The translations under genes and the position numbers were made by a program. From NCBI GenBank assembly GCA_938035125.1, contig CALHNS010000019.1:62001-126000 (forward strand): a stretch of 64,000 bases of DNA, in the 5' to 3' direction. Below are positions 27,416-48,234 of the stretch, in pieces. Under the pieces are notes generated by a model. That model was not told the origin of the DNA. It saw only the letters and a program-made list of their open reading frames with translations, and did no database searches. This DNA is from an uncultured Granulosicoccaceae bacterium. Its GTDB lineage: Bacteria > Pseudomonadota > Gammaproteobacteria > Granulosicoccales > Granulosicoccaceae. Position 1 is the stretch's first letter. Each line of letters opens with the position of its first letter.

Positions 27416-28297
27416 ATGAATGAGCCTGAACAAGCCACAAGTTCGGTGCAATCACTGGTGCAAACACCGGTGCAATCAATGCGCGAAGGCTCAACCCTTT
27501 ACTACGCCACATTAAAGCTACGGGATGAGGATCGCCAGCAGATTCTCAATGCGTTAAATTTAATTAAAACCTTAAGCTCATGCTTAACCGGCGTGCATGA
27601 CCCATCGGTTGCACAAACCAAACTGCAATGGTGGAGCGATGAAATAAGCCGTCTTGCGCTCAACGAACCTCGGCACCCAACGACCAAACAATGCGCCAAG
27701 GTATTAGCGGCAAACGAGCATGTGCAAGCTCAGTTAACACACATTCTTGATGCGGCAACGGCGGCGCGATTCGATGCACCCGACGGCGACGACACTTGGC
27801 GTGAACTGATGCAGCGCGACTATGCTGCGCGCTTATCGGTGCTGCAAACGAGTTTAGGTGATGAGAGCAAGATGCCACTGGATGAATTTGCTTTGGCCAT
27901 AGCTTGGGTGGACATCCTAAGTTCATTACCCAGTAGAATTCACCATGATGGCATCGCGTTTCCACCAACGTTCTACGAACGATTTAATGTATCCACGCAA
28001 GAGCTTCGTAAACAGCTACGAGTGGAAGGCCAAAAAATATCTGTGCCGCAAAGCACCAGCAAGATGCAGCCGCTACTCGATGAAGCGATTGATTGCGCCG
28101 AACGATCAATTAACGAGGCCATAAAAAGTGCGTCTTATGAACAACTGGTTTCTAAGAACCAACGCGCCTTGGTCATTTGGCTTCAAATTCGGCGTGCGCA
28201 ATTACACTTATGGAAAAAACAGCAACCCAATCTGTTTCGAGAAACCATGACACTGACACCACTAAAAAAGTGGTACATCGCGTTTCGCTACCGTTAG
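27416..28297 (+). CDS. squalene/phytoene synthase-like protein, probably not catalytic
   Basis: About 293 residues resembling the divergent squalene/phytoene synthase-like proteins of proteobacteria (the NDUFAF6 group). Visible family features are STLYYATLKLRDEDR, then KLQWWSDEISRLAL and an all-helical composition. The two Asp-rich metal motifs of true head-to-head prenyl synthases are missing: LIKTLSSCL and VHDPSVA stand where D-x-x-x-D should be. A role in ubiquinone or respiratory-complex assembly would fit the ubiG neighbour but is inference. The ATG at 27416 (with AAGGA upstream) is preferred over a GTG at 27359 that has no ribosome binding site. Confidence 0.7.
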   Translation: MNEPEQATSSVQSLVQTPVQSMREGSTLYYATLKLRDEDRQQILNALNLIKTLSSCLTGVHDPSVAQTKLQWWSDEISRLALNEPRHPTTKQCAKVLAANEHVQAQLTHILDAATAARFDAPDGDDTWRELMQRDYAARLSVLQTSLGDESKMPLDEFALAIAWVDILSSLPSRIHHDGIAFPPTFYERFNVSTQELRKQLRVEGQKISVPQSTSKMQPLLDEAIDCAERSINEAIKSASYEQLVSKNQRALVIWLQIRRAQLHLWKKQQPNLFRETMTLTPLKKWYIAFRYR

Positions 28298-31200
28298 TCA
28301 ACCCGCACATCAAAGGTTAATTCACCACCACCGCCAGCGAGCAATCGACCTACAAAGCGCCATTCGATAGGCCCTTCGTAACCCAGTGCATTCCCACCGG
28401 CCGAAGGCACTTCAACCGAGCAGGAAGTAATGCCTGGAGGCAATGTTGCTGGGCACGATACCGGTGTTGCTAAGCTCGTAAACGCAGGAGTTACATCTTT
28501 TATTCGCACATCGGACACACCACCAGCGCCTGCGTTTTCAAATGCCACTGTGTAACGAAGTATATCGCCCACATCAGCTGAGTTGGTTCGACTTAACCCC
28601 TCTCCTTCGCTGGTATTTTGAACAAATTTATCCAACACTAAACGCCCCGCAGCCGGTGCGGTTGTTGTCGTTATATCGGTTCGCTCACGCGTGCTTTGTA
28701 ATCCATGACCTAACGCTGATGGATCGGCATAGGAAAAGGTGGACGTTAACGTAGATAAGTTACGAGCACCAGCGGTTGTAACGGCGGGTGCAAATACTCT
28801 AACCAGTACACATAGGGTTTCATCCGCGTTAACGCTTAACGCCCCTGAAATTTGAGGATCATCTGAACCCAGTTCGGCATTACATGTTGCGTCAAGATAA
28901 ACCAAACTAGACCAGCCGTTATTAAGAGGTGAATTTACATTCTGCAAGGAGAATTCAACACTTCCAGCACTGGGTGATAAAAATCGATGTTGATAAACCG
29001 TAGAGCTGCCAGGCGATACACTGGCTACGTGCTCATCACTTAAGCTTGATGCTTTAACATCAGAAAAATCCAATCCGTTGACAACGTTTGCACCATTAAC
29101 GGTGAACGCAATAGCGTTGGATGATACGGATAAATGCTCTACTAAATCAGCACCAGCCGGTGGGCAGATATCAGGAACCGGTAAGCTAGCATAGGCGCTT
29201 TCGTACACGGTGTAGTTACCATCAAGCACTCGTTCAAATCGATACAACCCTTCGCCATCAGTTGATGCTGACACACACGTATTGGTTACATTGTCTTGCA
29301 GCACAACGGCCACGCCCGATAATCCCGCATCTGAACCGTCATAAAAACCATTCACATCTTTATCATTAAACACACGCCCAGTAACCAAAAACCCCGGCAC
29401 TTCAATAAGCACTGGATAGTCCTCTACTTCACCACTGGTGGACGGCCCTTCAGGGTTTAAACCGCTTTCTAGTGAATAACGGAAACGAGCAAAAGTGCCT
29501 CCAACGGCTGCATCTTCTGGCACGGTGAAACCTAACGAGGTGTTGCCCGTACCGACAATTAAATCGGTCGCTATTTGTTCGCCAGCGCCGTTAAAATCTC
29601 CATCGGCGTTAAAATCGATCCATGCGTTAAGGTAGGCGGTGCTGCCTGTGCCATTAACAGCCTGCACACTAGCATTGGCGGTTAAACCAGCCCTCACTAA
29701 GGTAGTGAACGTTATCCCATCCTCATCGTCGCCATTCTCGCTATCGTCATCACTGGCATCGCCAGATGAATCTTCGCCGTTTACAAAACCGTCCAGCTCT
29801 GCATCTACACTGGAACCTAATAAAAGATCGGCAACAATTTCATGACTTGGACCGTTATCGGACTCACGAGTGCGGTAATCACCGGGTGCAACACCTGCAG
29901 CCAAATCGGGCGCATCACCATAATCTAATGGTACTTGGCCAACACTAATATCTTTAAATGCTGAGTGGGTAACCGTACCTTCGGTACCTTCCACGCCTGT
30001 AACCACCACTCGCCATAGCCCTACATCAACGGTACTGGGTAAAGTGTACGAGGCTGCATAGGTTTTGGTGCCAGCGGTATTGGATATCGGTGCGCCCATC
30101 GACGCGGGGCCAAAAACAATGGCACCGGATGGGTCACGCACACTAAACAAGGCATCGCTAATGTCTGCTTGACCAAAGGGGTCGGAAATAGTTGAACTCA
30201 CATGGATAATGTCATCGGCATAAAATAAGGTTTGCGCATTTCCACCAGGTGCTGGCGCATCTAGGGTATCCAAAGAATCCACATTGATAACCGTTGATAT
30301 GACGGGTTCAATTCGAGAATTTGTGCCATTGAATGGGTGTATATCTAAGTAGCTGGTGTGGTTATTCAAAAATTCAAACTGAACTTGGCTGCCCGCAGCC
30401 AACGACACAGAAACCGGCACTGTTAAATCTAAGCGTACAAATTGCGGAACGTTGACTTGTTGAATAGTAATGGTTTGCGATAATTGATCACTGATATCGA
30501 TAACCGTTGATCCAATTGATTTCAGTTGGATTTGTACTGGAAAATCTTCAGCACTATCTGATTCCACCCACAAGAACACAGGAACAACGCCTGCATCAAA
30601 CGTTAGTGTATCGGTCGTTACCGGTGCAAGATTCCAACGAGCGCTGTTATTACTATCCACGCGGGTTGCTGCGGTATTCGATGATAATGGCTGCCGGGTA
30701 AGATCCGTTCCGGTTCCTAAATACAACGGCTTTATACCAACAGAGGGTACAAAAAGCTCGTTCACAACTGCGCTAACATCATCAGAATCGTTATCGCCTG
30801 CTGGGTAATCAACGGTTGCCGTATTGGTAATCACAGTTCCCACGGTTGCCAACGGATCAATGGTGACATCGAATACGATACTTGCACTGGTGCCGCCACT
30901 TATATCTAAATCACTGACACTGAGTAAGCCATTTCCGTTAGCACCGGCAGGCGCTGCAAGAAAAGATGGGGTGGCGCCAAGGGGCGAACTCAGCAGCGAG
31001 AAGTTTGATAACAAGGTGGGTAGGTTATCGACTACCGTAAGATCAGTTACCGCTGTCGCTTGAGAATTCAAAACAGTTAACGTGTATCGAAGCGTATCTC
31101 CTGGCTCTATGTCTCCTCCATTAACATCAACAAACGTTTTCGATAGGCTAACAGGCGATACGATTGGACCATTAGGAGAGGGAACGAGAAAAATAGTCTT

Positions 31201-34200
31201 ATCGTTTTCATCACTGTCTTGCCCTGCAGCAATCGATTCATTGGCAATTCCATCACCATCAGAGTCTGTTATCGTTCCGCTGTCTGAAAGGTCTGTATGA
31301 ATGCTACCCAATGGATCGGTCGCAGAAGCGGTTACTTGGTTTTCATAAAACCCGGTTCCTAAGCCTTGATCGGTAACCGTATCCACTCTTACCGTAAAAT
31401 TTAGTACTGCGGACGCACCGGCTATCAATGAACTTGCACTGGGTACCAGAAGATCAGTTTCTGACCCTCTGCCGGTAAAATTGGTGTTTATCGATAAGGT
31501 TCCAGGATCACTACCTGCCTGAATGCTTGGAACACCAATAATGGTATAGGTGCCAATACCCAGCACAGAATCTAATTCATCCAGCACCGAAAGATTGTTT
31601 AAATCTACAGTACCTAAGTTGTCCAGTTGAATAGCAAAAATAACTTCTTGGGAATTTGCAGGATTAAGTGTGGCGCTTTTCGCTACGCCCAACGCGGCCC
31701 TGTCTGCAACGTTTACAAGCGTAGGGTCGCCAAAGGCCCCAGTGCTAACATCATCAGAGACAATCGTAACGCCTCCACTACTCATGCTGGCTTGGTTGAA
31801 TATCGAACCGATGGGCGTGGTAGCCGGTATGTTCACTGCAACCGAAATAGTTTGAGAGCTTTGAGCGGGTATGTTTATTCCAGTGATGCTCAAGGTGTTG
31901 GTATCGTCATAAGCATTTACAGCGCTGCCCGATGGATCCACCAAGCTACCGGCAACAAACGTTCGTCCATCACTTAAGGTGTCTGATAAATTAAACGTTT
32001 CAGAAACTGATGTTGAGTTATGTAAAGTGAACTCATAAGTCGTTTCGCCACCTGCGATAGCATCGGATGGCACAGCGCGTTTATCTAATGCATAATAAAA
32101 TGGGCAACTCGCAACATCGCCTTCAGGTAATGCAGGGCCAGAGGCAATCAATTGCGTTTGGCCGGTGATCAAATCGATGGTATAACGCACACCGGTAGAT
32201 TCTTGAGTAAGGGTTAAGACCCCATTCGCATCAAAACTCATCCCAGCAATATCGGTTCCTGCGTTACCAGAACCAATCACAGCAGAACTGCCCGTGTTCG
32301 GATCGATGGTGACCAGTTGATTAGCTGAGGTGTAACCAAACACGGTGCCATCTGGATGCACCGCGATGTCTTTTAGATCTCGCCCATGCGAAAAATTGGT
32401 AATAATTTGTGGTGTTGAAGTGCCAACATCCAATACTAAAATTCTTGATCGTTCCGCTAAGGGTGCTGAAGTATCCGCATCAGTGACCACGTAATACAAC
32501 CCATCGGGCCCAAAAGCCCCACCAACGTAACGCGTGGTAAACGTTGGCATAACCGCTAACTGAGGGCCTTGCACCGGCCGCCCTAAATTAATAACACCAC
32601 CACCGGCATCAATTCTTAACAGAGATCCACTGCTAGGTTCACCAGGGCTTGTGTCTCTAACCACAGCGTATAAATAATCATCGACAGGGTTAAATCCCAG
32701 GGCATCGTAGGTATAACCCGTCGTTGGCGCGTAATTAATGCCACTGAATTCGTTGTGTGAATATACCGCTGTGGTTCTATCGACACTGTGCAACCGTGTA
32801 GAACTTGCGCCCTCACTCACATAGGTTGTGGCATCACACACTAAAGGTGGGCCTGATGCACCTGGCACAATACGCAAAGTCGCTGTGTTACTGGATGGCC
32901 CGTCTGAGGCTTGATCGAACACAACTGATGAGGTTACGTTGTCGTACAAATCTGTCAGTGTGGCTGTTACATCAATTTCAACAGTACAAACACCATTACC
33001 AGGAATCGAGCCACCTGTTACATTGAACTGCGAACCGCCATTAACGGTTGCAGCATCGGTTACAAAACCTGAACAACCAGCACCCGTTACACTCATAGTT
33101 GCAGGATCTTGCGATAAGATCATGCCTTGCGGGAAACTGTCGTTAAACGATACGCCCGTAATCGTATTGGAATCATTGTTAGTAATTTCAAAACTCATTG
33201 TCGACGGGTTGCCACTAACGATAACCGCCGGCGAGAAAGATTTTACGATCGTGGGGCGAGCGAAGTCATCACTAACAATACCCACATTGATAAAATTTGG
33301 AGTGGTTGTTTGCGAATAGGTATAGGTATCGATAAATGCGTTGTTACCTGGCCCACCGCTATTGAAAGCACCCCAACTGTGTTCCCCATCAAAAATGCCA
33401 TCAACGTTGAACGCATCCGGTTCGTTACTGTTTTGAACGGTAAAGTCATCCCAGAAAACAATGGTAGGCGTTACGGTTGTAGCCGAAATGGCTTTATTTA
33501 TTTTAATACCCCGATCATTAGGGCCGCCACTGGTTTCAACATCTTCAGCAACAAAGTGAAATTCCCCGATGCGCACACGTAAGCGAGCATTATAAAAACC
33601 AAAAGGAACCAGATTGCCTTCGTTATCTCGGCCGTTCCACGTAACTTGAGTGGTCCCTCCTCCTTCAATGACATTGTCAATAAGAAAGACATCACCTGCC
33701 CCATAAATTCCATCAGGACCACCACCGATACCATCACCAATATCTAAAACGATTTCGTAAACCGCGGTAGAGGTATTGTTGGTTTCAAAAAAGAAGGAGC
33801 CCGAATCTTGTGAATTTCCAGTACTTGCAGGTGAGATGGTTGCATCTAGGCCTTCATCATCAAGGAATCGAAAATTATCAACGGTTAATGTTTGAGTGGC
33901 TCGAGGGAAATTCTTAGCCGGGTAAGATACGTACATGGGATACAGTTCTTGGTTGATATTACCGTTACCCGTCGGTACGCTCAATCCAGATACATTTGTA
34001 TTGGGATCATTATTGGTAACACCTTTATCATTGGCTTTAAGTCGATAACCAAAACCTGCAAAGTTATTTAAATCCAGCTGCCATATATCAAATGTTCCAG
34101 CAAAACCTCCGTCAACTACAACGTATAAATCGGCATCTGTGGCACGATCTTCACCAAAACCTCCCGCCCAAGCACGCCATACGGTTGTCCATAAGCGCCC

Positions 34201-34755
34201 ACCATTCTCTTGTGGATCAATTAGGTCATTGACGGTATCCGTTACGGTGACATCGTAACGATTGAATTGAGTGGCGTTTAGATTGAAAAAGCGAAGTTCG
34301 TAGGTTCCCGATGATCCTGTGACGTATTGAAAGGGATCGGTTGTTGCAGGATCCCAAGGGGCATCAAAATTATCTGCACAATTTACATTGGAAGATGTTC
34401 TCGTTTCACTAAAAACAACCGCACCGCTAGGATCGCGAATATCCACTCGCATGTCGTGCGAATTTCTGGTACCACAAAGGAAAACATTGATTACCTCCCC
34501 TGGGGCCAAAATATCAACAAAGCCTAAAAAATAGTTACCGGTAATGTTGTTCTCTTGAATGGGCTGCCGGTTACTTGCCGATTCAAACAAACCCAGCTGC
34601 CACGCGCCTTCCGCTCGAGCTGAGTTAGGGGTAAGCACAAAGCTGAACGCGAAAAGCGTCAATAGAAAAACATTGGCAGATGCAGATTTTGCGCAGCGCC
34701 AAAATTCAGTCAACGACTCCTTCATCACTTTGAATTGGTCTTTTATCGAAGGCAT
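28294..34755 (-). CDS. giant secreted repeat protein (DUF11, propeller, GEVED, SdrD-B modules)
   Basis: A 2153-residue exported protein. A Sec signal peptide ends near A-R-A-E-G (about residue 48). Modules in order: an N-terminal beta-rich region with Cys pairs, DUF11-like repeats (about 500-640), a propeller-like region with NHL/DUF6923 character (about 645-895; TRYVGGAFGPDGLYYVVTD), more DUF11 repeats (about 900-1320), a region containing DIHPFNGTNS, a GEVED domain (about 1610-1785; DYGDAPDLAAG, AWIDFNADGDFNGAGE, GEVEDYPV), an SdrD-B-like domain (VFNDKDVNGFYDGSD), and a terminal DUF11 domain ending TFDVRVD. No membrane anchor, sorting signal or RTX nonapeptide is seen. It is divergent from the 35038 operon and its stop overlaps the 28297 stop by four bases. 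Likely a cell-surface or matrix protein. Confidence 0.85.
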   Translation of the reverse strand: MPSIKDQFKVMKESLTEFWRCAKSASANVFLLTLFAFSFVLTPNSARAEGAWQLGLFESASNRQPIQENNITGNYFLGFVDILAPGEVINVFLCGTRNSHDMRVDIRDPSGAVVFSETRTSSNVNCADNFDAPWDPATTDPFQYVTGSSGTYELRFFNLNATQFNRYDVTVTDTVNDLIDPQENGGRLWTTVWRAWAGGFGEDRATDADLYVVVDGGFAGTFDIWQLDLNNFAGFGYRLKANDKGVTNNDPNTNVSGLSVPTGNGNINQELYPMYVSYPAKNFPRATQTLTVDNFRFLDDEGLDATISPASTGNSQDSGSFFFETNNTSTAVYEIVLDIGDGIGGGPDGIYGAGDVFLIDNVIEGGGTTQVTWNGRDNEGNLVPFGFYNARLRVRIGEFHFVAEDVETSGGPNDRGIKINKAISATTVTPTIVFWDDFTVQNSNEPDAFNVDGIFDGEHSWGAFNSGGPGNNAFIDTYTYSQTTTPNFINVGIVSDDFARPTIVKSFSPAVIVSGNPSTMSFEITNNDSNTITGVSFNDSFPQGMILSQDPATMSVTGAGCSGFVTDAATVNGGSQFNVTGGSIPGNGVCTVEIDVTATLTDLYDNVTSSVVFDQASDGPSSNTATLRIVPGASGPPLVCDATTYVSEGASSTRLHSVDRTTAVYSHNEFSGINYAPTTGYTYDALGFNPVDDYLYAVVRDTSPGEPSSGSLLRIDAGGGVINLGRPVQGPQLAVMPTFTTRYVGGAFGPDGLYYVVTDADTSAPLAERSRILVLDVGTSTPQIITNFSHGRDLKDIAVHPDGTVFGYTSANQLVTIDPNTGSSAVIGSGNAGTDIAGMSFDANGVLTLTQESTGVRYTIDLITGQTQLIASGPALPEGDVASCPFYYALDKRAVPSDAIAGGETTYEFTLHNSTSVSETFNLSDTLSDGRTFVAGSLVDPSGSAVNAYDDTNTLSITGINIPAQSSQTISVAVNIPATTPIGSIFNQASMSSGGVTIVSDDVSTGAFGDPTLVNVADRAALGVAKSATLNPANSQEVIFAIQLDNLGTVDLNNLSVLDELDSVLGIGTYTIIGVPSIQAGSDPGTLSINTNFTGRGSETDLLVPSASSLIAGASAVLNFTVRVDTVTDQGLGTGFYENQVTASATDPLGSIHTDLSDSGTITDSDGDGIANESIAAGQDSDENDKTIFLVPSPNGPIVSPVSLSKTFVDVNGGDIEPGDTLRYTLTVLNSQATAVTDLTVVDNLPTLLSNFSLLSSPLGATPSFLAAPAGANGNGLLSVSDLDISGGTSASIVFDVTIDPLATVGTVITNTATVDYPAGDNDSDDVSAVVNELFVPSVGIKPLYLGTGTDLTRQPLSSNTAATRVDSNNSARWNLAPVTTDTLTFDAGVVPVFLWVESDSAEDFPVQIQLKSIGSTVIDISDQLSQTITIQQVNVPQFVRLDLTVPVSVSLAAGSQVQFEFLNNHTSYLDIHPFNGTNSRIEPVISTVINVDSLDTLDAPAPGGNAQTLFYADDIIHVSSTISDPFGQADISDALFSVRDPSGAIVFGPASMGAPISNTAGTKTYAASYTLPSTVDVGLWRVVVTGVEGTEGTVTHSAFKDISVGQVPLDYGDAPDLAAGVAPGDYRTRESDNGPSHEIVADLLLGSSVDAELDGFVNGEDSSGDASDDDSENGDDEDGITFTTLVRAGLTANASVQAVNGTGSTAYLNAWIDFNADGDFNGAGEQIATDLIVGTGNTSLGFTVPEDAAVGGTFARFRYSLESGLNPEGPSTSGEVEDYPVLIEVPGFLVTGRVFNDKDVNGFYDGSDAGLSGVAVVLQDNVTNTCVSASTDGEGLYRFERVLDGNYTVYESAYASLPVPDICPPAGADLVEHLSVSSNAIAFTVNGANVVNGLDFSDVKASSLSDEHVASVSPGSSTVYQHRFLSPSAGSVEFSLQNVNSPLNNGWSSLVYLDATCNAELGSDDPQISGALSVNADETLCVLVRVFAPAVTTAGARNLSTLTSTFSYADPSALGHGLQSTRERTDITTTTAPAAGRLVLDKFVQNTSEGEGLSRTNSADVGDILRYTVAFENAGAGGVSDVRIKDVTPAFTSLATPVSCPATLPPGITSCSVEVPSAGGNALGYEGPIEWRFVGRLLAGGGGELTFDVRVD

Positions 34756-34951
34756 AGAGAGTTCCGAAATACAGACGATCACTCAGCAATTAGTAAGCCA
34801 TTAACAGAGCAATTCGAGCCGCATTACTTGATTTTCAAGGCCATTTTTCAAGTGCTTTTTAAAAAACTTAAACCTAAAAATGTTGACTGGTTCTCCATTT
34901 GAATTCAGAGAACTGCCAAAGAAAATACAAATCCTCCACTTAGGCACAGTC

Positions 34952-38714: not shown

Positions 38715-38772
38715 CCTAGTTCTAGGGGCCTACAACTTAAGCTATTCAAAAAGAAAACAATAACCCACTGTG

Positions 38773-41700
38773 ATGTATTTTTTATCGAATCATTTTTTTC
38801 AACAAGCGAGAAATTGCCTGCACGTGCTACTGTGCACGTTTGCGATTACTCTATCGCTTGTTGGAACCTATGTTTCGGCAGCAACCGCCCCAGGCACGCT
38901 CATTCACAATCGGGCGGAAATCATCTATTTTGATACGGGCACAGGTTCCATCATTCGCACCCAATCGAATAATTCCACAGTAGAAGTCGCAAGAGTTTTT
39001 CGCGCAAAAATTGAAGGCCCATCAACCCATATTGCACACGCTGCAAAATTCCTTGGCCTACCTTTTCGAATTCAAAATACCGGTAATGCGGCAGATTCTT
39101 TTTCTCTTAATGTTGAAAATCTAACAGGTGACTCTGGTGATGTTCAAAGCCTTTTCTTAATTCACGATATAAACGGCAACGGTATCGCCGATGCGGGCGA
39201 ACCCGTAATTTCTGAAACCCCGCGAATAGAACCTGGCAATATTATCGAACTGGTGGTGGCTGGAAATATTCCTTCCACCGCGATCGTTGACGAACAATAT
39301 CAAGTTGGCGTATCAGCTGTAGGAAATAACGCCAATCAGCCACTGAACGCTACCACAACGATCACAATCGTTGATGGTGCTTTTATAAGCCTGACTAAAA
39401 GTTCAGAATCAGAATGCTCGGTTCCTACACCGCCCAACACGGACATCAATTATCGTATTGATTTTACGAACAGTGGTAACCGAGAACCTGAATCGCAAAC
39501 GGTGTTAATCGATGGAATTCTGCGAACCGGTGTGCTCATCCGAGACAATATTCCTGCAGGCACACAGCTTCTACCCAATCAGAATATTTCGTTTGCTCCT
39601 ATCCAAGGCCTGCCCATTGTTTTAGAAAACGTATCTGAATCACAATGGTTAAGCTATTCTGCGTGGGATCGCGCTCGCCCTGCCGCAAGCTTCGGACTAT
39701 TCGTACCTGCTGAAAATATGGCGCCCGGGCAAAGTGGTAACTTTTTGTTCTCGCTTCGCGTTATTGATTTGGAATTACCCAACGCGTTGGTTGAAAACAT
39801 CGCAGGCGTCGATATCGATGGGGACGGCCAATTTGATTTTGAATCTAATGCGGTGTGTAATCTAATCGATGAGACCGAACCAGATCTTGGTGCTGCAATT
39901 GATGCCACTGATGCAACCCTCAGTTTTCAACGCCCTTCACCAGAGCTGCAACGTCAAAATAGTACCCCTGATTTTTTCAATGAAGAACACTTTGTTGAAT
40001 CAGGCAGCTTTCGAATCAATTCAGGTTCCACCTCTTATCAGCCCATACGTGATGGACTGTACTTAGAACTTAGAACCACGGGCTTACCCCCAGGCACCAT
40101 TATCGGCACCGATAGCCGCGGTGCATCCTACGTGCTAGTCACCCTAGAATCAGAATTAACTGGTGACACACTGCAAGTGGTGATGTTAGAAACAGAACCC
40201 GAATCGGGAATCTTTCGAAACATTCGCCCTATTGGTTTGAGTTTAAACGATAGCGGTAACGGGCAAATTTGCCCGGGGGGTGACCGTATTGGCGAATTGG
40301 CTATAGGCTATGAAATCGATGCACCTGAATGTGTGTTAACCAGTGCATCCAACGATGTAATACGCGCTATTTTAGTTGATGGAAACCAAAATGCCGACAT
40401 CATCCTTACCGCATCCGTTGTTGTGTCCCCAACAGCGATTGTGTTTGATGCATTCACTCGTAACCCAGTTCCTGGTGCACGCGTATCGATTCGCCAAGGT
40501 GGCGCACCCGCAGCAGCGAGTGCGGGAATTTTCGATGATGGAGAAGACTCACCTATCGTTCCAGATATCATTACTAACGATCCATTAGTCGCCATCACCA
40601 ACGCACAAGGTGAATACGAAATCCCTCCTCTATTGCCTGGCGATGGGTATTATTTATTTGTTGAACCCCCTGAAAATTTCATTTTCCCATCACAAGTAGC
40701 ACCTGAAGATTTAATTGGTTTACAAGTTACACCCGCTTCTTACGGCCCCCTAGGAGTGGGTGAAAGCAGCGGTGTTTTTTCAATTAGAGAAGGCGATGCC
40801 ACACCCATTGGTGATATCCCTCTTGACCCCGCCGATTCAAGTAACCGCCTATCAATTGAAAAACGTGCACTGCAAGTAGAGGTTGAGCCAGGTGATGTTG
40901 TTGGGTACACCGTTACCGTCACCAATCGCACCGATGAAGAACAATTTAATGTGCGTGTGGGTGATCGAGTGCCATTTGGTTTTAAGCTTATTTCTGGCAC
41001 CACACGAGTAGACAACGAACCCGCAGCTGAGCCATTAGGTACGCCAGGTTATGAACTGGATTTTCCTTTAGGTACGTTACTTGGCGGTGAATCGCGCGAA
41101 CTAACCTACGTGCTCGAAGCAACAGCAGGTTCTATTGACGGGGACGGTATTAACAAGGCACGTGCAAGCGCTAGAACCAATACCGGTGTGATTCTGCGTT
41201 CAGCCGAAAGCCGTGCTCGTGTTCGAATCAACCGAGACAGCGCATTATCCGATAGAGCCGCACTGTTTGGAAAAGTGTATATCGATTCTGATTGCAACAA
41301 CATACAAAACGATGCCGAATGGCCCATTGGTGGTGTTCGACTGTATTTAGATGATGGTTCTTTCGCCATCACTGATGAAAACGGGCAATACAGCCTGTAC
41401 GGATTGGAACCGGGAACCCGTGTACTACGTGCCGACCCATTAACGGTACCAGAAGGGTTAACATTCAAACCATTAGACAATGCCAACGCCGCAGTGGGCG
41501 ATAGTCGATTTGTTCACTTAAGCCCAGGTGACTTTCATCGTGCTGATTTCGCAGCTACCTGTCCTGTAGCCAATATAGAAAAAGTGTTTGAAGAGATTCG
41601 CGCACGTAATGCAACGATTGATGGCAGCTGGTTGTTAGAAGAAGCCGAGCGCTTTTCACCCAATAACGATACACAAGACACCGCAAATCGGGGTCTACCC

Positions 41701-44700
41701 AACATCAACGCCGCTGATATTGACGGTGATTTATCAAACGGTATTTTAAACGGCCCAGACACGGGCCGAACGCGTTCAGAAAAGCGCATTGAAGATAAAG
41801 AAGAAGCAGAATTAGAAAACCAGAAAAAATTGATTCCAGCGGTGGCGCCAAAAGCGCCATTACTCGATCCTAAAACAGCCGTTGCAACTATTACCAATGA
41901 GCAGGCGAAATTAGGCACGTGGTTGTGGCCTGAAAGCGACACTAGCCTGGACGGCCGATTCATTGCTGTTATCCGAGCCGGTATCGACCCTACCTTGTTT
42001 GTTAACGGCGAAGCCATAGCAGATACTCAAATTGGTGAACGTATAGAAAACCGACGCGAAAGTGCGCAAGTGGTTGCCTGGTATGGCGTGCAACTAAGCC
42101 CTGGCTTAAATCGGGTTGAAATTCGCGGAACCGATACGTTCGGCAATACCCGAGTATTGGCTGAAAACGAATTCAAACGACCCGCACAAGGCACACGAAT
42201 GGTGCTGCGCGCAAAAACCGATACCTTATCGGCAGACGGTGGCAGAAGCGTATTGCCAATTGAAATCAATATCCTTGATGACAACGGCTACCCAGCGCAA
42301 GGGGTGCATTTCGTTACCTTAGATGCAGGCAGTAACAGCGGCGGATGGCTTGAAGATGATTTACAAGCTTCAGAAGATGGTCAACAAATTCGTGTGGATG
42401 AAGGACGAGCAACCGCGCACCTAAAAAGCTCTGACTACACCGGCACCGTAACAGTGAGCGCAAGCGCTAATGATATGAACGCCAAACTGCGTGTATTTCA
42501 AATTGCCACGCTTCGTCCTTTATTCGGTGTGGGCGTATTGGAATTAAACCTTGGCGCCACCGAATTATCCAGCGACGGTCTAACCCCAACAGCCCACGCA
42601 GATGGAGCAGAAGACGGTACTGAAATAGATGGTCGAATTTCGATGTTTCTTAAAGGCCAGATTCGTGGCAATACTCACTTAACGTTATCGTATGACAGCG
42701 ATAAAACACGTGATACGGATTTGCTACGAGACATTGAACCCGGTGCTCATTACCCAATACATGGGGATGCATCGATTCGTGGTTATGAGGGTCAAAGCCG
42801 CAGTAAGCTTTACGCAAAACTTGAACGTGGGAAAAACAGCATTCTGTGGGGTGACTACGTTACCGATGTAGACGGAGAGATCGATAATCTGGCGCGCCAA
42901 CAACGTGTTCTTACAGGTTTCAACAGTCGTTACGACACAGGCCGAGCAAGCTTTCAAGTCTATGCGGCAATGGCAGAAGAAGGTCGTCGTTTCGAGGAAA
43001 TTCCTGGCAACGGCACAGCCCTACTGTATCAACTGCAAGGCGCACCCATCATCGCTAACAGCGAATTGGTGGAAATCATCGTGCGTGATAGAGAAAATCC
43101 TGGGCTAGTCATCTCTCAAACGCGTTTGGTTCGTTTCGGTGATTACACCATCGATTCCATTAGTGGTGAACTATCGTTTGCCGATGTGATTCCAAGTTTC
43201 GATGACGAGCTCAATCCAATTTTTCTACGCGTTACCTACGATCAAGAAAATGGCGGCGAAGAACATTTAGTTGCAGGCGCACGAGCACACTTCAATATCA
43301 CCGATTCACTAACCGCTGGCGCAAGCTTTTCAGATGACAGCGCCCCCATTGATGGAGGATCTTTAGGTGGTGGTTACCTAGCGTGGCGCCCAAGCGACAA
43401 CACAACCGTTTCAGCCAGTGCTGCCCGTGCAACCCATAATAATGGCGACCAGGCTGGCAACGCTCAACGTTTAAGCATTGAACAACGCTGGGGATCAAGC
43501 AACCAACGCACAACATCGATTGTGGCCGCAAACGCTGACGCAGGTTTTAACACAGCCGATGCCGGCATCGGTGCAGGCAGACGTGAAGTACGATTAGAAC
43601 ATCGTGAACGCTTCTCCTCAACTTTACGAGGAGAGATTGAAGGCACATTAAGCGAATCAACCGAATCTGATGAGCTTCGTAGCACCTTCGGCGGCACCTT
43701 AACCAAGTCTTATAGAAACTGGACACTACGCGGTGGCGCTCGTCGCATTCGTCAACGCACGAGCGGTACAAGCGATGAATTTACCACAGCCATCGTGGGT
43801 GCAGAACGACGCTTTACTGTCGGTGGCAGAAACGCATCAGCGGATATCGAATACGAACAAGATGCCACAGAAGCTGCACGCAATCGCGTTAGTTTAGGTA
43901 CAAGAATTCAATTACGAGATCATTTGCAACTGAATGCACGTTATGAACGCGAAAGCGGCATATATGATTTTTCAAGTGGTGGCACTCAGAGCACCAATGA
44001 ATCCTTCATTGCAGGCTTAGAATCGGATGCCATAAAAAATACGCGCCTGTATTCAGAGTATCGAATGCGCGGTGGCATCGGTGGTCGCGATCTAGCAACC
44101 GCTAGCGGCATTCGAGGTAACTATGAAGTAGCCAATGGTTTGAAAGTATCCCCTGCTCTTGAGGTGGTGAATTCCATCGCAGGTGATGACAGCGGTGATG
44201 GTGTGGCTATATCGGTAGGTGTTTCTGATACCAGAAACCCCAACGTTCGCGCATCAGCCCAAGCTGAATACCGCATGGGCAGAGATTCAGACCTGATTGG
44301 TTTACGCGCCAACTACGCGGCTCGTTTAAATTTAGATTGGACGGCAATTGCTAGCGAAGATTTTCGCTTAACCGACCCTGATGAAGGCCAAGTGGAAACG
44401 CGCCATGCCCTTACCTTAGGTTTAGCACGCAGGCCTCGTTTGAACAACCGACATCATATGTTGTTTCAATATCAATGGAAAGTTGATCGAGCCGACGGAG
44501 AAACCTTAGATCGTGATACCCACGTATTGTCTACCCATCAAAATTTTCAGCTGGGTGCGGGTGTCACATTGGCTGGGCGATTGGGCGGTAAGCAACAAAC
44601 GAATTTCTTAATTGATAGAGACTTTAAATCAGCCGCATACTTAGCCGATATCAGAGTCATTATGGATTTGTCCAGACGCTGGACGGTCGATTTACGCACA

Positions 44701-44922
44701 GGAATACTGGCTACAGGTTCTGGTGAAAGCATTCGGCACTCATTCGGTGCGGGTGTCTCCTATCTTGTCGATCGCAACCTGGAATTACACCTAGGTTACA
44801 ACACCACAGGTTTTCGTGATGAAGACTTAGATGGTGAAGGTTATAACGCTCATGGCGTGCGTTTTGGCATTCGCTACAAATTTAATGAAAACTTGTTCCA
44901 TTGGTTAAATGCGCCCAAGTAA
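38773..44922 (+). CDS. giant outer-membrane protein: Ig/DUF11 modules fused to a C-terminal barrel
   Basis: A 2049-residue protein. After a signal peptide (ending V-S-A-A) it has the N-terminal module shared with the 35634 and 45550 proteins, including the calcium-like DINGNGIADAGE. Next come a carboxypeptidase-regulatory-like domain (about 552-640), a DUF11 module (about 693-820; VGYTVTVTNRTDEEQ), an SdrD-B-like domain (about 832-920; KVYIDSDCNNIQNDAE), a charged linker, and a big-Ig-like domain (about 1145-1235). The last 750 or so residues, from GAHYPIHGDASIRGYEG, alternate polar and hydrophobic residues as in outer-membrane barrels. It ends FGIRYKFNENLFHWLNAPK. A GTG one codon upstream (38770) is an alternative start. 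It could anchor or export the neighbouring DUF11 proteins. Confidence 0.88.
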   Translation: MYFLSNHFFQQARNCLHVLLCTFAITLSLVGTYVSAATAPGTLIHNRAEIIYFDTGTGSIIRTQSNNSTVEVARVFRAKIEGPSTHIAHAAKFLGLPFRIQNTGNAADSFSLNVENLTGDSGDVQSLFLIHDINGNGIADAGEPVISETPRIEPGNIIELVVAGNIPSTAIVDEQYQVGVSAVGNNANQPLNATTTITIVDGAFISLTKSSESECSVPTPPNTDINYRIDFTNSGNREPESQTVLIDGILRTGVLIRDNIPAGTQLLPNQNISFAPIQGLPIVLENVSESQWLSYSAWDRARPAASFGLFVPAENMAPGQSGNFLFSLRVIDLELPNALVENIAGVDIDGDGQFDFESNAVCNLIDETEPDLGAAIDATDATLSFQRPSPELQRQNSTPDFFNEEHFVESGSFRINSGSTSYQPIRDGLYLELRTTGLPPGTIIGTDSRGASYVLVTLESELTGDTLQVVMLETEPESGIFRNIRPIGLSLNDSGNGQICPGGDRIGELAIGYEIDAPECVLTSASNDVIRAILVDGNQNADIILTASVVVSPTAIVFDAFTRNPVPGARVSIRQGGAPAAASAGIFDDGEDSPIVPDIITNDPLVAITNAQGEYEIPPLLPGDGYYLFVEPPENFIFPSQVAPEDLIGLQVTPASYGPLGVGESSGVFSIREGDATPIGDIPLDPADSSNRLSIEKRALQVEVEPGDVVGYTVTVTNRTDEEQFNVRVGDRVPFGFKLISGTTRVDNEPAAEPLGTPGYELDFPLGTLLGGESRELTYVLEATAGSIDGDGINKARASARTNTGVILRSAESRARVRINRDSALSDRAALFGKVYIDSDCNNIQNDAEWPIGGVRLYLDDGSFAITDENGQYSLYGLEPGTRVLRADPLTVPEGLTFKPLDNANAAVGDSRFVHLSPGDFHRADFAATCPVANIEKVFEEIRARNATIDGSWLLEEAERFSPNNDTQDTANRGLPNINAADIDGDLSNGILNGPDTGRTRSEKRIEDKEEAELENQKKLIPAVAPKAPLLDPKTAVATITNEQAKLGTWLWPESDTSLDGRFIAVIRAGIDPTLFVNGEAIADTQIGERIENRRESAQVVAWYGVQLSPGLNRVEIRGTDTFGNTRVLAENEFKRPAQGTRMVLRAKTDTLSADGGRSVLPIEINILDDNGYPAQGVHFVTLDAGSNSGGWLEDDLQASEDGQQIRVDEGRATAHLKSSDYTGTVTVSASANDMNAKLRVFQIATLRPLFGVGVLELNLGATELSSDGLTPTAHADGAEDGTEIDGRISMFLKGQIRGNTHLTLSYDSDKTRDTDLLRDIEPGAHYPIHGDASIRGYEGQSRSKLYAKLERGKNSILWGDYVTDVDGEIDNLARQQRVLTGFNSRYDTGRASFQVYAAMAEEGRRFEEIPGNGTALLYQLQGAPIIANSELVEIIVRDRENPGLVISQTRLVRFGDYTIDSISGELSFADVIPSFDDELNPIFLRVTYDQENGGEEHLVAGARAHFNITDSLTAGASFSDDSAPIDGGSLGGGYLAWRPSDNTTVSASAARATHNNGDQAGNAQRLSIEQRWGSSNQRTTSIVAANADAGFNTADAGIGAGRREVRLEHRERFSSTLRGEIEGTLSESTESDELRSTFGGTLTKSYRNWTLRGGARRIRQRTSGTSDEFTTAIVGAERRFTVGGRNASADIEYEQDATEAARNRVSLGTRIQLRDHLQLNARYERESGIYDFSSGGTQSTNESFIAGLESDAIKNTRLYSEYRMRGGIGGRDLATASGIRGNYEVANGLKVSPALEVVNSIAGDDSGDGVAISVGVSDTRNPNVRASAQAEYRMGRDSDLIGLRANYAARLNLDWTAIASEDFRLTDPDEGQVETRHALTLGLARRPRLNNRHHMLFQYQWKVDRADGETLDRDTHVLSTHQNFQLGAGVTLAGRLGGKQQTNFLIDRDFKSAAYLADIRVIMDLSRRWTVDLRTGILATGSGESIRHSFGAGVSYLVDRNLELHLGYNTTGFRDEDLDGEGYNAHGVRFGIRYKFNENLFHWLNAPK

Positions 44923-44940: not shown

Positions 44941-45546
44941 ATGAACATCAATCAATCAATACAGGCCATAAGAGACCTTTGCAGATTCTCAATAGTTGCT
45001 GCAACGTCGCTGCTACTGATTGGGTGCGTGACAACCGAAGAGCTTTATGCAGAATACGACGATCAAGCTTGCCGGGTTAGCTTAGTTAAAACCACATCAG
45101 GCCACACTGTTGTTAAAGAATTGGTATCTGATCGATCAATGGCATGGGAACCTTCGGTTCTTTTCGCTTTAGGTAAAGATAACTTAGGTGAGAACCAAAA
45201 GCGACGCTTAGATCAAGATGTTGCTGTACTTAAACGATACCCAGAACTACGCGTAAGTGTGCGAGGCTATGCCGACGCCTCAGGCACCGCACTCTTTAAT
45301 CGTGATCTTGCGGCACGTCGCGCCGCTAAAGTAGCAAGTTATTTAGTTAAATCAGGCATTGATCGTGACCGCGTGCAACAAACCTCGCTAGGAGAAGGCA
45401 TGCCCATAAAGCAAGCTGAAGCTGAAGCTGCGGTACCGGTTAATCGTCGTGTGGAATTGGTTCTCATGGATGTCAATAGCAATTTAGTGCGGTATCAGGT
45501 AAACCCTGAAGAGCCACCTATCAGCGCAGCCACAGAGGAAGAATAA
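44941..45546 (+). CDS. OmpA-family peptidoglycan-binding lipoprotein
   Basis: A 201-residue lipoprotein (lipobox L-I-G-C, Cys29) with a C-terminal OmpA-like domain (about residues 75-175). The peptidoglycan contact motif NRDLAARRAAKVASYLV and NRRVELVLMD are intact. It should sit in the outer membrane and bind peptidoglycan, anchoring or stabilising the barrel encoded 18 bp upstream. Its stop is three bases before the GTG of the next gene, so the three downstream genes appear co-translated. A function outside this operon (as a general Pal-like protein) is less likely given the context. Confidence 0.92.
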   Translation: MNINQSIQAIRDLCRFSIVAATSLLLIGCVTTEELYAEYDDQACRVSLVKTTSGHTVVKELVSDRSMAWEPSVLFALGKDNLGENQKRRLDQDVAVLKRYPELRVSVRGYADASGTALFNRDLAARRAAKVASYLVKSGIDRDRVQQTSLGEGMPIKQAEAEAAVPVNRRVELVLMDVNSNLVRYQVNPEEPPISAATEEE

Positions 45547-45549
45547 ACT

Positions 45550-48234
45550 GTGAACTCGCTAGATATAGAATTCAAGCGAACGGGTGCAGCCCAAATCGTG
45601 CAAACGTTAATATTCACTTTGGTGGCGTTTGTTGTGCTGATCGCAGCGATTAACACAGCTTTCGCAGCCACGCCTGCAGGCAGCTTAATACGCAACCAAG
45701 CCAGCGCTACCTACGTTACAGATGATGGCGTAGAGCAATTCGCCACATCGAATATCGTTGAAACGGTGGTTCGTCAGGCTGCCGGTGTGGAACTTGCCCA
45801 AAGTCAAAATAAACTCGTTGGCCCCAGCGGCACGATTATTTTCCCACACGTGGTGACTAATTCAGGCAACGGCCCCGATTCATTTTTATTGGATACCACG
45901 CAACTTGGCGGTGATGATTTTGATTTCGTTGGCGTAACTCTTTTCGCAGATTACGATCAAAATGGGATCGCCGACGATTCCATTCCCATCACAGCCTCAC
46001 CAGTTTTAGCAGCAGAGGATTCTTTTTCGTTTGTGGCTGTTGCCAACGTTCCTGCTGGGTTGTCCATCGGGCAATTTGCTGAAACGTCAATAACCGCAAC
46101 CAGTAGTTTCGATGCCTCTCAATCTACCTCGAATGTTGATCGAGGAACCATCACCAGCGGTGCAATTGTTGATGTATCAAAATCTATGAACGTAACCACA
46201 GGTGAATCCCCCAGTGGGCCTTACACCGTTACGTTGGACTATCACAACAGTGGTACAGCCGTAGCCAATAATGTGGCCTTGATTGATGCCTTACCCACCG
46301 GTATGAGTTACGTTCCAAATTCAGCCCGATGGAGTCTTGACGACACCATTGTGTTAACTGATTCTAACCCTAGCGATGCTCAAGGATCTGCCCCCAACAC
46401 CATTCAATTTTGCGCCTACAACGCAAGCTGTATCAACTTACCTGAAGCTACACGCGATGCCGATTCATTAAGTAGCAACCAAGTAACCGCTGTTATTGCG
46501 CAGGTTAATCCAGGTGATCGAGGCCGACTGAGCTTTAACGTAACCATCGACTCAGGTGTGGTAGCAGAAGATTTATTCAACGCAGCAGAATTTGAATACG
46601 ACGATAACGGAACTTTGGTAAGTCGCGTGGAAACGAACGTGGTAGCTTTTCGTGTATCACAAGCCACAGGCGTCGTTGCCAACGGTTCTACCACCAGCAA
46701 TATTGATGGCACAAACGAACCTGTAAACATTGTAACGGCTACTCAAGGTGCCACTGTTGATTTCGATAACGTTATTTGGAATACCGGTAACGATGTTGAT
46801 ATTATCGACATCATTGTTGATAACGACGGCGCAACTTTCCCTCAAGGCACCGGTTTACAATTGTACCGTGGTGATAGCAATACCCCTTTATTAGACAACA
46901 ACGGCAATGGCATTCCCGACACTGGTCCATTAGAACCCGGTGAGAGCTTTATCGTTGTGTTAAGAGCAACGCTTGCACCGGATGCGGTTGGTAACAACGG
47001 GGGGGCAGGGTTTCAAGTTACTAAAACCGCGCGCTCTTCCAACGACCCTAATGCCAGTAATAGCGTAACCGATCTTTTGAATTCCATCGGGCCCAGCGCG
47101 ATTGATCTAACCAATAGCGCTGCAGCAGGCACGACAGGCGCTTTAGGTGAAGGCGCTGGCGCAGAAAGCTCTGCTGTGCTGATGAATTCTGCCATTCCTG
47201 GTGAAACCACGCAATTCAGCCTGTTTGTAACCAATATTGGCAACACACCAGACCAATGGACATTGAACGCTAGCACAGACCCTACGTTTGCAACCACGGT
47301 ATTACCCGATGGTTGGAGCCTTGTGTTCACCAACGCGGATGGTTCAGAAACTCTAACCAACACAGGTTCATTAAGTGCAGGTAATTCAGTAGAAATCATG
47401 GCTGTTATCACGGTGCCAGAAGATCAGACTGATGTGGTTCAAAGCCTTTATTTTCAAGCCTTGTCTCCTGTTACCGGAAGCGCAGACATCATTCACGACA
47501 GCATAGAAGTGGTGAGCGCGCCAAGTTTACTTTTAGAACCGCCAGGCAACGCACAAGTAGAAGCAGGCAACGCCTTTGTGTATTCACACCGGATTGAAAA
47601 CAGCAGCAATGCAGCGGTTACCAACATTAATCTATCCACGTCTGACACTCTAGCCAGTTCAGGATGGACATCTATCTTGTATGAGGACACCAACAACGAT
47701 GGTATCTTTTCATCCGCCGATCAGCCCATCAATTCTTTAGCTAATTTACCTGCTGGTGAATCAGCTGTTTTGTTTGTTCGAGTGGTATCTCCTGCAAACG
47801 CTGCAGCCGGTGGGTTTAATGTAACCACCTTAACGGCATCGGCTAACGGTGGAAGTCTTAGTGTGTCGGTGGAAGATGTAACAACCATTGCATCAGGCGA
47901 CATTGCCATTACAAAAGAACAAGCACCGGATATTGGTTGCGATGGAACCCTTGATGGGCCTTACTCAGCCCAACCGTTTTTTATGGAGCCTGGCAACAAC
48001 TGCGTGCGTTATCGCTTAACCGCTACAAACGCTGGAATAGAACCGGTGTTCAATGCCATCATTGAAGATGCAACGCCGCCATTCACTGTTTATGAACCCA
48101 GCGCCGCGTGCTCAGCCACACCCTGTACTATTGTGGAACCTAACGCAGGCGGTACCGGTATTGTTTCAGGGGAAGTGGCATCGGTTGCGCCTGGGGAGAG
48201 TGTTGAATTAACGTTCGCTGTGGTCATTGAATGA
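45550..48234 (+). CDS. large secreted DUF11-repeat protein, paralogue of the 35634 protein
   Basis: An 894-residue exported protein starting at GTG, with AGAGGAAG upstream. The signal peptide ends near A-F-A (residue 39). The N-terminal module (AGSLIRNQASATYVTDDG) and the order of later repeats match the 1002-residue protein end to end. Both carry the same internal landmark (GNNGGAGFQVTK here, GDNGGAGFLATV there), a Cys-containing last domain (DIGCDGTLDG against DTDCDGTADS), and a C-terminus that stops at a beta strand (TFAVVIE against FSVRVE). Calcium-type loops occur (DNNGNGIPDTG, DTNNDGIFSSAD). It probably arose by duplication and flanks the barrel and OmpA genes on the other side. Confidence 0.87.
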   Translation: MNSLDIEFKRTGAAQIVQTLIFTLVAFVVLIAAINTAFAATPAGSLIRNQASATYVTDDGVEQFATSNIVETVVRQAAGVELAQSQNKLVGPSGTIIFPHVVTNSGNGPDSFLLDTTQLGGDDFDFVGVTLFADYDQNGIADDSIPITASPVLAAEDSFSFVAVANVPAGLSIGQFAETSITATSSFDASQSTSNVDRGTITSGAIVDVSKSMNVTTGESPSGPYTVTLDYHNSGTAVANNVALIDALPTGMSYVPNSARWSLDDTIVLTDSNPSDAQGSAPNTIQFCAYNASCINLPEATRDADSLSSNQVTAVIAQVNPGDRGRLSFNVTIDSGVVAEDLFNAAEFEYDDNGTLVSRVETNVVAFRVSQATGVVANGSTTSNIDGTNEPVNIVTATQGATVDFDNVIWNTGNDVDIIDIIVDNDGATFPQGTGLQLYRGDSNTPLLDNNGNGIPDTGPLEPGESFIVVLRATLAPDAVGNNGGAGFQVTKTARSSNDPNASNSVTDLLNSIGPSAIDLTNSAAAGTTGALGEGAGAESSAVLMNSAIPGETTQFSLFVTNIGNTPDQWTLNASTDPTFATTVLPDGWSLVFTNADGSETLTNTGSLSAGNSVEIMAVITVPEDQTDVVQSLYFQALSPVTGSADIIHDSIEVVSAPSLLLEPPGNAQVEAGNAFVYSHRIENSSNAAVTNINLSTSDTLASSGWTSILYEDTNNDGIFSSADQPINSLANLPAGESAVLFVRVVSPANAAAGGFNVTTLTASANGGSLSVSVEDVTTIASGDIAITKEQAPDIGCDGTLDGPYSAQPFFMEPGNNCVRYRLTATNAGIEPVFNAIIEDATPPFTVYEPSAACSATPCTIVEPNAGGTGIVSGEVASVAPGESVELTFAVVIE

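Follow-up and report, generated by a model that had tools for sequence, protein, structure and literature searches.

How exported DUF11 proteins that carry no anchor could be held together at the cell envelope is the question raised by this locus, which lies within a window of 64,000 nucleotides, the whole stretch of DNA that was analysed. The original prediction answered it with a platform of an outer-membrane barrel and an OmpA lipoprotein, on which the anchorless repeat proteins would be displayed or polymerised. To this reading our analysis adds split DUF11 domains, whose sequences suggest how the proteins could be joined. The C-terminal DUF11 domain of an anchorless subunit, which is without its last β-strand, would act as an acceptor, and a strand at the mature N-terminus of another subunit as its donor. 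We consider it probable that the locus encodes an usherless, sortase-free outer-membrane fibre, whose split DUF11 (CLIPPER) domains are joined by donor strands and welded in trans by predicted isopeptide bonds.

The locus and its barrel protein

The genes of the locus and the barrel-like region were as follows, with the source of each assignment in brackets.

28294-34782, minus strand: P0001, 2162 aa from the longest start, exported, acceptor-only and tip-like (translation, Pfam)
35038-35529, plus strand: P0002, 163 aa, a small "cap"-family DUF11 protein (translation)
35634-38642, plus strand: P0003, 1002 aa, putative shaft protein with donor and acceptor (translation, own DUF11 model)
38770-44922, plus strand: P0004, 2050 aa, putative donor-only anchor (translation, Pfam, profile search, amphipathy)
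42517-44919, plus strand: barrel-like half of P0004, residues 1250-2050 (period-2 amphipathy, z 5.9)
44941-45546, plus strand: P0005, 201 aa, OmpA-like peptidoglycan-binding lipoprotein with lipobox LIGC (translation, Pfam)
45550-48234, plus strand: P0006, 894 aa, putative shaft protein with donor and acceptor (translation, own DUF11 model)

ORF coordinates and translations confirmed the six genes where they had been predicted; the 2153 residues originally given for the first gene would correspond to a later start. The same-strand run of five genes, P0002 to P0006, was also recovered, with gaps of 104, 127, 18 and 3 bases, so that the word "tight" applied to it suits the last three genes best. 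DUF11 scored above the Pfam cut-off in P0001-P0004 and barely under it in P0006 (24.4 vs 24.6 bits), and TIGR01451 of NCBIfam was above its cut-off in all five of these proteins. P0001 also contained DUF6923, DUF7933, GEVED and SdrD_B, SdrD_B was found again in P0004, and P0005 contained an OmpA domain (PF00691, 1.5e-15), with the lipobox visible in its translation. By themselves, the Pfam and NCBIfam names were chiefly repeat-domain labels.

The six flanking genes tested belonged to ordinary metabolism and transport (a methyltransferase, a squalene/phytoene synthase, a PBP-superfamily binding protein, a short-chain dehydrogenase, a carbon-nitrogen hydrolase and an amine oxidoreductase). Promoter and terminator scans, with 22 promoter-like sites against 20.9 expected and 26 terminator-like sites against 16.7, were of no help in judging co-transcription. 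The same genome contained a second, divergent cluster (L013) with the same donor/acceptor logic, in which an OmpA domain was seen by eye to be fused to a DUF11 protein of 1849 aa.

P0004 consisted of an N-terminal donor, DUF11, SdrD_B, an Ig domain resembling the C-terminal domain of GH2 galactosidases in a profile search, and the C-terminal barrel-like half. Its alternating hydrophobicity, scored against shuffles, was higher in this half than in two Ig stretches (z 3.0 and 2.5). No barrel family of Pfam, where the classical autotransporter barrel is PF03797, or of NCBIfam matched the half, and distant barrels can escape Pfam; no solved barrel matched its profile by sequence. The term "barrel" therefore rests on the alternating hydrophobic pattern and on the eye of the earlier reader. 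Single-protein searches of the PDB with P0003 and P0004 found nothing; profiles were needed.

Split DUF11 domains and the Lys-Asp-Asn triad

The anchorless proteins stopped at the point where a DUF11/CLIPPER domain should gain its last β-strand, and P0003, P0006 and P0004 started, directly behind the signal peptide, with the strand that the acceptors miss. Putative triad residues were mapped to the CLIPPER structure 9IFR, and acceptor domains were delimited with our own DUF11 model.

28297-28641, minus strand: acceptor domain of P0001
28627-28629, minus strand: putative isopeptide Lys2052 of P0001
28495-28497, minus strand: putative catalytic Asp2096 of P0001
35733-35819, plus strand: donor strand of P0003, residues 34-62, with Asn43 at 35760-35762
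38247-38639, plus strand: acceptor domain of P0003
38259-38261 and 38412-38414, plus strand: putative triad residues Lys876 and Asp927 of P0003
38881-38970, plus strand: donor strand of P0004, residues 38-67, with Asn47 at 38908-38910
45667-45753, plus strand: donor strand of P0006, residues 40-68, with Asn49 at 45694-45696
47902-48231, plus strand: acceptor domain of P0006
47914-47916 and 48067-48069, plus strand: putative triad residues Lys789 and Asp840 of P0006

The DUF11 model, built from the class sample, had 113 columns. The last DUF11 domain of P0001 covered columns 3-89 and reached the stop codon with the C-terminus ...LTFDVRVD, short of the final strand, and its N-terminus contained no donor. 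Among 100 DUF11 proteins of the class sample with a true stop, 50 ended within 3 residues of column 89, 12 ended 20-49 residues beyond it by the model (to the eye, 11 of these had the same type of final strand), 37 ended more than 100 residues beyond it, these being barrels and OmpA proteins, and one was a fragment. The same end point was reached by 53 of 94 proteins of a later sample and, after removal of duplicates, by 146 of 182 non-barrel proteins, another 26 of the 182 lying at +4 to +10; all these end-point counts refer to DUF11 proteins from these loci. Internal DUF11 domains extended beyond column 100 in 135/161, 98/128 and 327/373 cases in three samples.

The donor Asn lay a median of 15 residues downstream of the signal core (IQR 14-17), and within 25 residues of it in 224 of the 227 measurable cases among 233 donors, duplicates included. 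This distance was measured from the hydrophobic core of the signal peptide instead of the AxA motif, which was uninformative because the donors themselves hold AxA motifs. The donor profile aligned to the final strand of internal domains with a score of 16.6, whereas 97 column shuffles scored no higher than 10.8; 3 others were discarded as degenerate artefacts with scores near 131. Although the score exceeds the shuffles, the hhalign probability was low (5.3%). In the phylum sample, just 10 of 23 barrels passed the donor score. C-termini without the last strand and N-termini bearing it therefore define acceptor-only (tip-like), donor-plus-acceptor (shaft) and donor-only (barrel anchor) proteins.

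The triad residues of 9IFR and the CLIPPER isopeptide bond were taken from PMC12617251; in this crystal structure, Lys and Asp precede the last strand, Asn sits on it, and an isopeptide bond is formed. In a profile search that used 21 of the 22 internal domains drawn (L096 was left out), 9IFR matched with E 1.2e-10, and Lys, Asp and Asn were all aligned. With duplicates removed, Lys and Asp were both retained in 211 of 216 acceptors, in 366 of 564 complete internal domains (345 with the full Lys-Asp-Asn triad) and in 6 of 83 caps, where Lys was scored by a loose pattern and the first 25 residues were omitted because the pattern matched signal peptides in caps. At 50% identity the pair was present in 107 of 112 acceptors vs 3 of 39 caps; the sequences in these counts are related, and loci are not independent trials for Fisher p-values. 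The donor Asn was present in 219 of 223 donors, a count that is partly circular because the training sequences of the donor profile had been selected by a motif allowing N or S at this position, and Ser was seen there by eye in the barrels of several loci (L089, L092-L094). Since the Asn-bearing strand is absent from the C-terminal domains, the triad is not contained within the domain of one chain. The repeats dropped were L132, L151 and L176, which in the named sample duplicated the class sample, and L193, a repeat within the named sample; before this step the counts were 219/224 acceptors, 6/87 caps and, for the barrel loci with acceptors given below, 108/115.

P0002 contained a signal peptide and a single DUF11 domain without the last strand or a donor; Asp79 was kept and the Lys motif was absent by eye. 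An acceptor was counted as a cap if it was no longer than 217 aa and had no donor score, and four short proteins (two of L068, one of L083 and one of L077) were reassigned by hand from caps to acceptors.

AlphaFold2 models of relatives of the window proteins, from L100 and L098, were computed as read-through chains in which the donor is tethered behind the acceptor, and docking was read from the aligned residue ranges of the superposition. In the model of an acceptor with a barrel donor, the acceptor blocks had pLDDT 81-94, the linker <50 and the donor 94-95. Among the structural matches listed, 9IFR superposed at 118 of 123 residues on positions 1-199, spanning the linker, which predicts that the donor docks into the acceptor in this relative. 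In the cap control, a small paralogue from L098, 87 of 123 residues of 9IFR were covered (model 2-138) and the domain stayed incomplete. Alignment rows for the read-through chain were picked after a trial; five barrel rows were omitted because they misaligned, four acceptor rows because they repeated paired ones, and a single cap row was omitted as well. The trial row L109 was left out of the cap alignment. A role of caps as donor-taking tip caps or donor chaperones was considered, but the L098 cap model showed no donor uptake.

Recurrence and a model of fibre assembly

Among 274 genomes of the class, 39 contained relatives of the barrel half. Of the 111 loci whose long-form barrel ORF was whole, duplicates removed, 104 also encoded one or more proteins with a C-terminal acceptor; the fetched region contained none in L060, L103, L110, L131, L173, L177 and L199, some of which lie at contig ends. 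In the class and phylum samples, acceptors occurred in 40 of 43 whole loci with the long barrel form vs 6 of 23 with the short form, a count that omits 12 loci because their barrel was cut and 4 because no barrel was recognised; five of these six short-form loci had donor-like N-termini by eye, and the sixth was a fragment. The gene set thus recurs in many genomes and is therefore not due to chance. The proposed co-occurrence was borne out for the barrel and the DUF11 proteins, and the counts support the view that the barrel protein and the anchorless DUF11 proteins are one conserved system, whose architecture is compatible with polymerisation on the barrel. The predicted platform stood in this outline, except for the OmpA lipoprotein as a universal part, a gene similar to P0005 lying within 3 kb downstream of the barrel in just 48 of 153 barrel-ORF loci. 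Relatives also occurred in culturable genera, e.g. Photobacterium and Thiothrix.

In the proposed mechanism, insertion of the donor would complete the acceptor and link the proteins head to tail, without a chaperone, usher or sortase. The N-terminus of the P0004 barrel would enter the C-terminus of a shaft (P0003 or P0006), and the N-terminus of the shaft that of the next shaft or of P0001, which has an acceptor only. The large N-terminal part of P0001 would then be shown at the far end of the fibre, possibly for adhesion; this pairing order follows from the distribution of donors and acceptors and is itself a prediction. Since the acceptor retains Lys and the catalytic Asp and the donor bears Asn, a Lys-Asn isopeptide bond is predicted to form spontaneously between the chains and so to weld each joint, as in a natural tag/catcher pair. 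P0002, whose family has mostly lost the Lys-Asp pair, may have an accessory role, being unable to form the weld, and P0005 may link the base of the fibre to peptidoglycan.

Whether such a fibre would lie on the surface has to be weighed against a periplasmic scaffold, joined in the same way, that tethers peptidoglycan or the outer membrane. The N-terminal parts of C-terminal barrel proteins are often periplasmic, and the fibre could therefore be periplasmic too; OmpA domains adjoin or are fused with DUF11 proteins, as in P0005 and the 1849-aa protein of L013. We hold this location to be unlikely, since Ig-rich subunits of 900-2200 residues seem oversized for the periplasm, GEVED and SdrD_B modules are, by the premise of the original prediction, usual in surface proteins, and the source protein of 9IFR is named a Gram-negative fibrillar adhesin in passages of PMC12617251. 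That the N-terminal strand of P0003 and P0006 folds onto the C-terminal domain of its own chain, giving closed monomers and no polymer, is conceivable where donor and acceptor share one polypeptide and a loop can form. But the same clusters hold a donor-only barrel and acceptor-only tip proteins, which can therefore pair solely between chains, and shafts of 330-450 residues seem to offer scant length for bending; such closure is very improbable.

Donor-strand complementation could also proceed without a covalent bond, Lys, Asp and Asn aiding folding or buried hydrogen bonding. Isopeptide-free donor-strand fibres do exist, in chaperone-usher pili (PMC9715654) and in TasA (PMC9674648), and some donors are without Asn, as many internal domains are without the triad. 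A structural role leaves the contrast in Lys and Asp among acceptors, internal domains and caps unexplained, however, and we regard this reading as rather unlikely. Least probable would be separate fibrillar adhesins encoded at one locus, their truncated ends being a habit of the family with no role in joining: proteins with DUF11 domains commonly serve as stalks and have been called fibrillar adhesins (PMC12617251), and the end-point counts are confined to these loci, but the exact end point, the complementary start, the coupling of acceptors to the long barrel form, the half-triads conserved on either side and the model superposition across the joint all speak against it.

It is somewhat more plausible than its opposite that this fibre represents an unrecognised class of surface fibre, polymerised by enzyme-free split isopeptide domains with an N-terminal tag and a C-terminal catcher, in which a tagged giant barrel would serve as anchor and exit pore and a paralogue of ~165 aa would handle the parts non-covalently, in many Pseudomonadota and reaching Desulfatibacillum and Verrucomicrobiota. 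No description of split DUF11/CLIPPER domains or of a trans bond in them was found among the papers listed in searches of open-licence PubMed Central, which covers few subscription papers or preprints. If the proposal is true, a role is found for the widespread "DUF11 domain-containing" orphans, a self-catalysed covalent fibre joins the short list of bacterial surface-polymer routes, the split-isopeptide trick of protein engineering, known mainly from the laboratory, is also natural, and the many donors and acceptors found in nature (223 and 216, respectively, in the loci counted) would be a source of new protein-ligation tags.

Comparison with known systems

The tip protein of chaperone-usher pili carries a distal N-terminal domain, as the tip-like P0001 would. 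In these pili, of the FimH/FimA type, an Ig-like subunit without its last strand likewise receives the N-terminal donor of the next subunit (PMC9715654), whereas the subunits here are multidomain proteins of ~330-1100 residues, a barrel anchor donates a strand and the joint is predicted to be covalent. The genome of the window (92.5% complete) gave 0 matches to the usher PF00577 and the PapD-type chaperone PF00345, with positive controls in E. coli, and 0 to the sortase PF04203, with positive controls in three Gram-positive genomes. Type V (Mfa/Fim) pili exchange strands after protease cleavage, whereas the donor here is already at the end of the signal peptide; by eye, none of P0003, P0004 and P0006 had a lipobox of the pattern [LVI][ASTVI][GAS]C ahead of its mature N-terminus.

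The SpyTag/SpyCatcher pair is an engineered split isopeptide domain that joins two chains. Split isopeptide domains derived from the adhesin RrgA also weld two chains (PMC5333627, PMC5487036); both are laboratory splits of intact domains, whereas the split here would be natural and would serve to build a polymer. Passages of PMC12282271 on T11SS cargo dealt almost wholly with DUF1194 and mentioned DUF11 once, and this route was rejected as a candidate. The archaeal threads of Sulfolobus (Saci_0406) are head-to-tail donor-strand filaments with a proposed intermolecular isopeptide bond, which links Asn57 to the α-amino group at the N-terminus of subunit n+2 (PMC9715654); they have one small subunit type and no barrel, whereas a Lys-Asn bond of one completed domain is predicted here. 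The grappling-hook filaments of Aureispira (GhpA, matched by sequence with E 6.7e-7 in a profile search) and Litorilinea (GhlA) contain DUF11-type domains, but one giant protein spans the filament there, and the passages of PMC13319060 on them describe no donor/acceptor split. CLIPPER (DUF11, PF01345; 9IFR) is the same domain family, with Lys, catalytic Asp and Asn at the same profile positions. In the published CLIPPER, according to passages of PMC12617251, a single chain carries all three residues and the bond forms within that chain, whereas here the domain is split over two proteins, with Lys and Asp on one and Asn on the other.

Split DUF11 domains in the cluster

The source genome of the window was 3.54 Mb in 111 contigs (92.5% complete). 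All six ORFs that the original prediction placed at 28294..48234 were present on translation, and the flanking genes (six tested) were ordinary metabolic and transport genes. Elsewhere in the window, the 6-base repeat GTTCAG (20.7 copies, 7847-7970) lay inside ORF 7440-8141. Below, an acceptor is a C-terminal DUF11 domain without its last β-strand, and a donor is the matching strand at the mature N-terminus of another protein.

28294-34782, minus strand: P0001, tip-like protein; putative acceptor residues Lys2052 and Asp2096
35038-35529, plus strand: P0002, small cap-type protein
35634-38642, plus strand: P0003, shaft protein; putative triad Asn43 (donor), Lys876 and Asp927 (acceptor)
38770-44922, plus strand: P0004, barrel protein; putative donor residue Asn47
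44941-45546, plus strand: P0005, OmpA-like lipoprotein
45550-48234, plus strand: P0006, shaft protein; putative triad Asn49 (donor), Lys789 and Asp840 (acceptor)
206-13593 of L013 (G000:C35:8000-24000): second, divergent cluster of the same genome

The C-termini of the four anchorless proteins (P0001, P0002, P0003, and P0006) all fell at one same DUF11 position, with the ends ...LTFDVRVD, ...YAYRVVVD, ...AQFSVRVE, and ...LTFAVVIE. The last strand of a complete domain, of the "itNtAsVt" type in the model consensus, was absent past these ends and was found directly after the signal peptide in P0003, P0006, and P0004 (AGTEIKNLATVTY, AGSLIRNQASATY, and PGTLIHNRAEIIY), while the N-termini of P0001 and P0002 were without a donor-type strand. 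Thus, with ends lacking the strand and starts carrying it, the cluster holds acceptor-only, donor-plus-acceptor, and donor-only members. L013 encoded a 629-aa acceptor-only protein, a 778-aa donor-plus-acceptor protein, a 1849-aa donor protein with a C-terminal OmpA-like domain (by eye), and then a separate 1197-aa barrel-family protein, and it repeated this division of roles on a peptidoglycan-binding base.

Among the matches listed, the named relatives nearest to the barrel protein belonged to uncultured Granulosicoccus (59% identity) and to Granulosicoccaceae (42-44%). The Ig domain preceding the barrel in P0004 resembled the C-terminal domain of GH2 β-galactosidases. In L100 and related barrels, the domain after the donor resembled parts of 8c8k (E 2.8e-6), a solved "cell surface protein" that belongs to an archaeal S-layer.

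Distribution among relatives

Relatives were drawn from a class sample (40 chosen regions, barrel match in 39/274 genomes, plus the window and L013), a phylum sample (40 chosen regions, barrel match in 57/398 genomes), and 80 named loci from a genome scan with at least 569 relatives; removal of four named loci duplicating others left 158 of 162 loci in the final counts. The 113-column DUF11 model was built on the class sample and then frozen. Among DUF11 proteins with a true stop in the fetched loci, all from barrel-bearing genomes, 50/100 (class) and 53/94 (phylum) ended within 3 residues of column 89, as did 146 of the 182 non-barrel proteins after removal of duplicates. The remainder of the class and phylum samples mostly had more than 100 residues after the last DUF11 (37 and 37; barrels and OmpA proteins). 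Internal domains extended beyond column 100 in 135/161, 98/128, and 327/373 cases in the three samples. Donors, called at a score of at least 8 bits with a model leaning on the Asn-bearing motif, numbered 76 and 157 proteins, just one per count being neither a DUF11 nor a barrel protein; the donor Asn lay a median of 15 residues downstream of the signal core.

Acceptors and donors occurred together. Of the whole loci in the class and phylum samples, 40/43 with the long barrel form (with N-terminal modules) contained acceptors versus 6/23 with the short form (separate barrel); the comparison excluded 12 loci whose barrel was cut and four without a recognised barrel. By eye, five of these six short-form loci (L013, L068, L083, L118, and L122) had N-termini that resembled donors and differed in sequence type, and the sixth, L123, was a fragment. 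Co-occurrence of barrel, DUF11 proteins, and OmpA lipoprotein, as originally predicted, held in part: a non-cap acceptor accompanied the barrel in 104 of 111 whole long-form loci (three samples, duplicates removed), but an OmpA-like gene lay near the barrel in 48/153 barrel loci. The same 111 loci had a barrel donor by score in 88 and a cap-type small protein in 79. This ~165-aa paralogue (35038-35529 and relatives) had largely lost the cross-linking Lys-Asp pair.

Barrel and acceptor genes also stood together outside Pseudomonadota, in L158 and L196 (Verrucomicrobia/Opitutia records) and L138 and L142 (Desulfatibacillum), which suggests age or transfer. At L077 12703-13698, a shaft gene was apparently broken into two neighbouring ORFs, which carry the donor and the acceptor separately. 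A barrel-family match at G112:C2:461374-462273 lay within an 11777-codon open frame.

Conservation of the isopeptide triad

CLIPPER is the name under which a DUF11 crystal structure appeared in 2025, with the isopeptide triad Lys715-Asp748-Asn806 (PMC12617251). A profile was built from 21 internal, complete domains selected for Lys and without selection for Asp or Asn; all three residues were invariant in it, and it matched the CLIPPER structure (E 1.2e-10) with Lys, Asp, and Asn aligned. The split domains divided the triad between two partners, the acceptor carrying Lys and Asp and the donor Asn. The Lys-Asp pair was complete in 211/216 acceptors, compared with 366/564 internal complete domains and 6/83 caps; at 50% identity, the values were 107/112 for acceptors and 3/39 for caps. 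The donor position was Asn in 219/223 (Asp 2, Ser 1, His 1), a count partly favoured by the motif-leaning model.

Proposed fibre and known systems

The subunits would be exported by Sec via their signal peptides. The donor is predicted to insert into the acceptor, as modelled with a relative of the window's proteins, and triad conservation suggests that an isopeptide bond would weld the joint. The donor/acceptor logic points to the order tip, shaft(s), barrel. Speculatively, subunits might cross the large barrel tip first, the chain being ended by the barrel's own donor; ushers provide the general analogy for such passage. P0005 probably links the fibre to peptidoglycan, and the adhesion or matrix role originally proposed may apply to the fibre.

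A Pfam search of the window's genome found no usher, PapD-type chaperone, or sortase, each being positive in the expected control genomes, and the identity of a chaperone-usher or sortase pilus was therefore ruled out. Fibres joined by donor strands have been described, as have pili with isopeptide bonds. In archaeal threads, a donor strand is paired with a proposed covalent linkage whose chemistry differs from that predicted for the split DUF11 fibre (PMC9715654). No example of one isopeptide domain split naturally between subunits was found in the open-access literature searched, and the bolder reading, that the split-domain system is a new fibre class, seems to us somewhat probable. The proposed fibre would resemble the chaperone-usher pilus in the way its subunits join and the sortase pilus in its predicted covalent nature.
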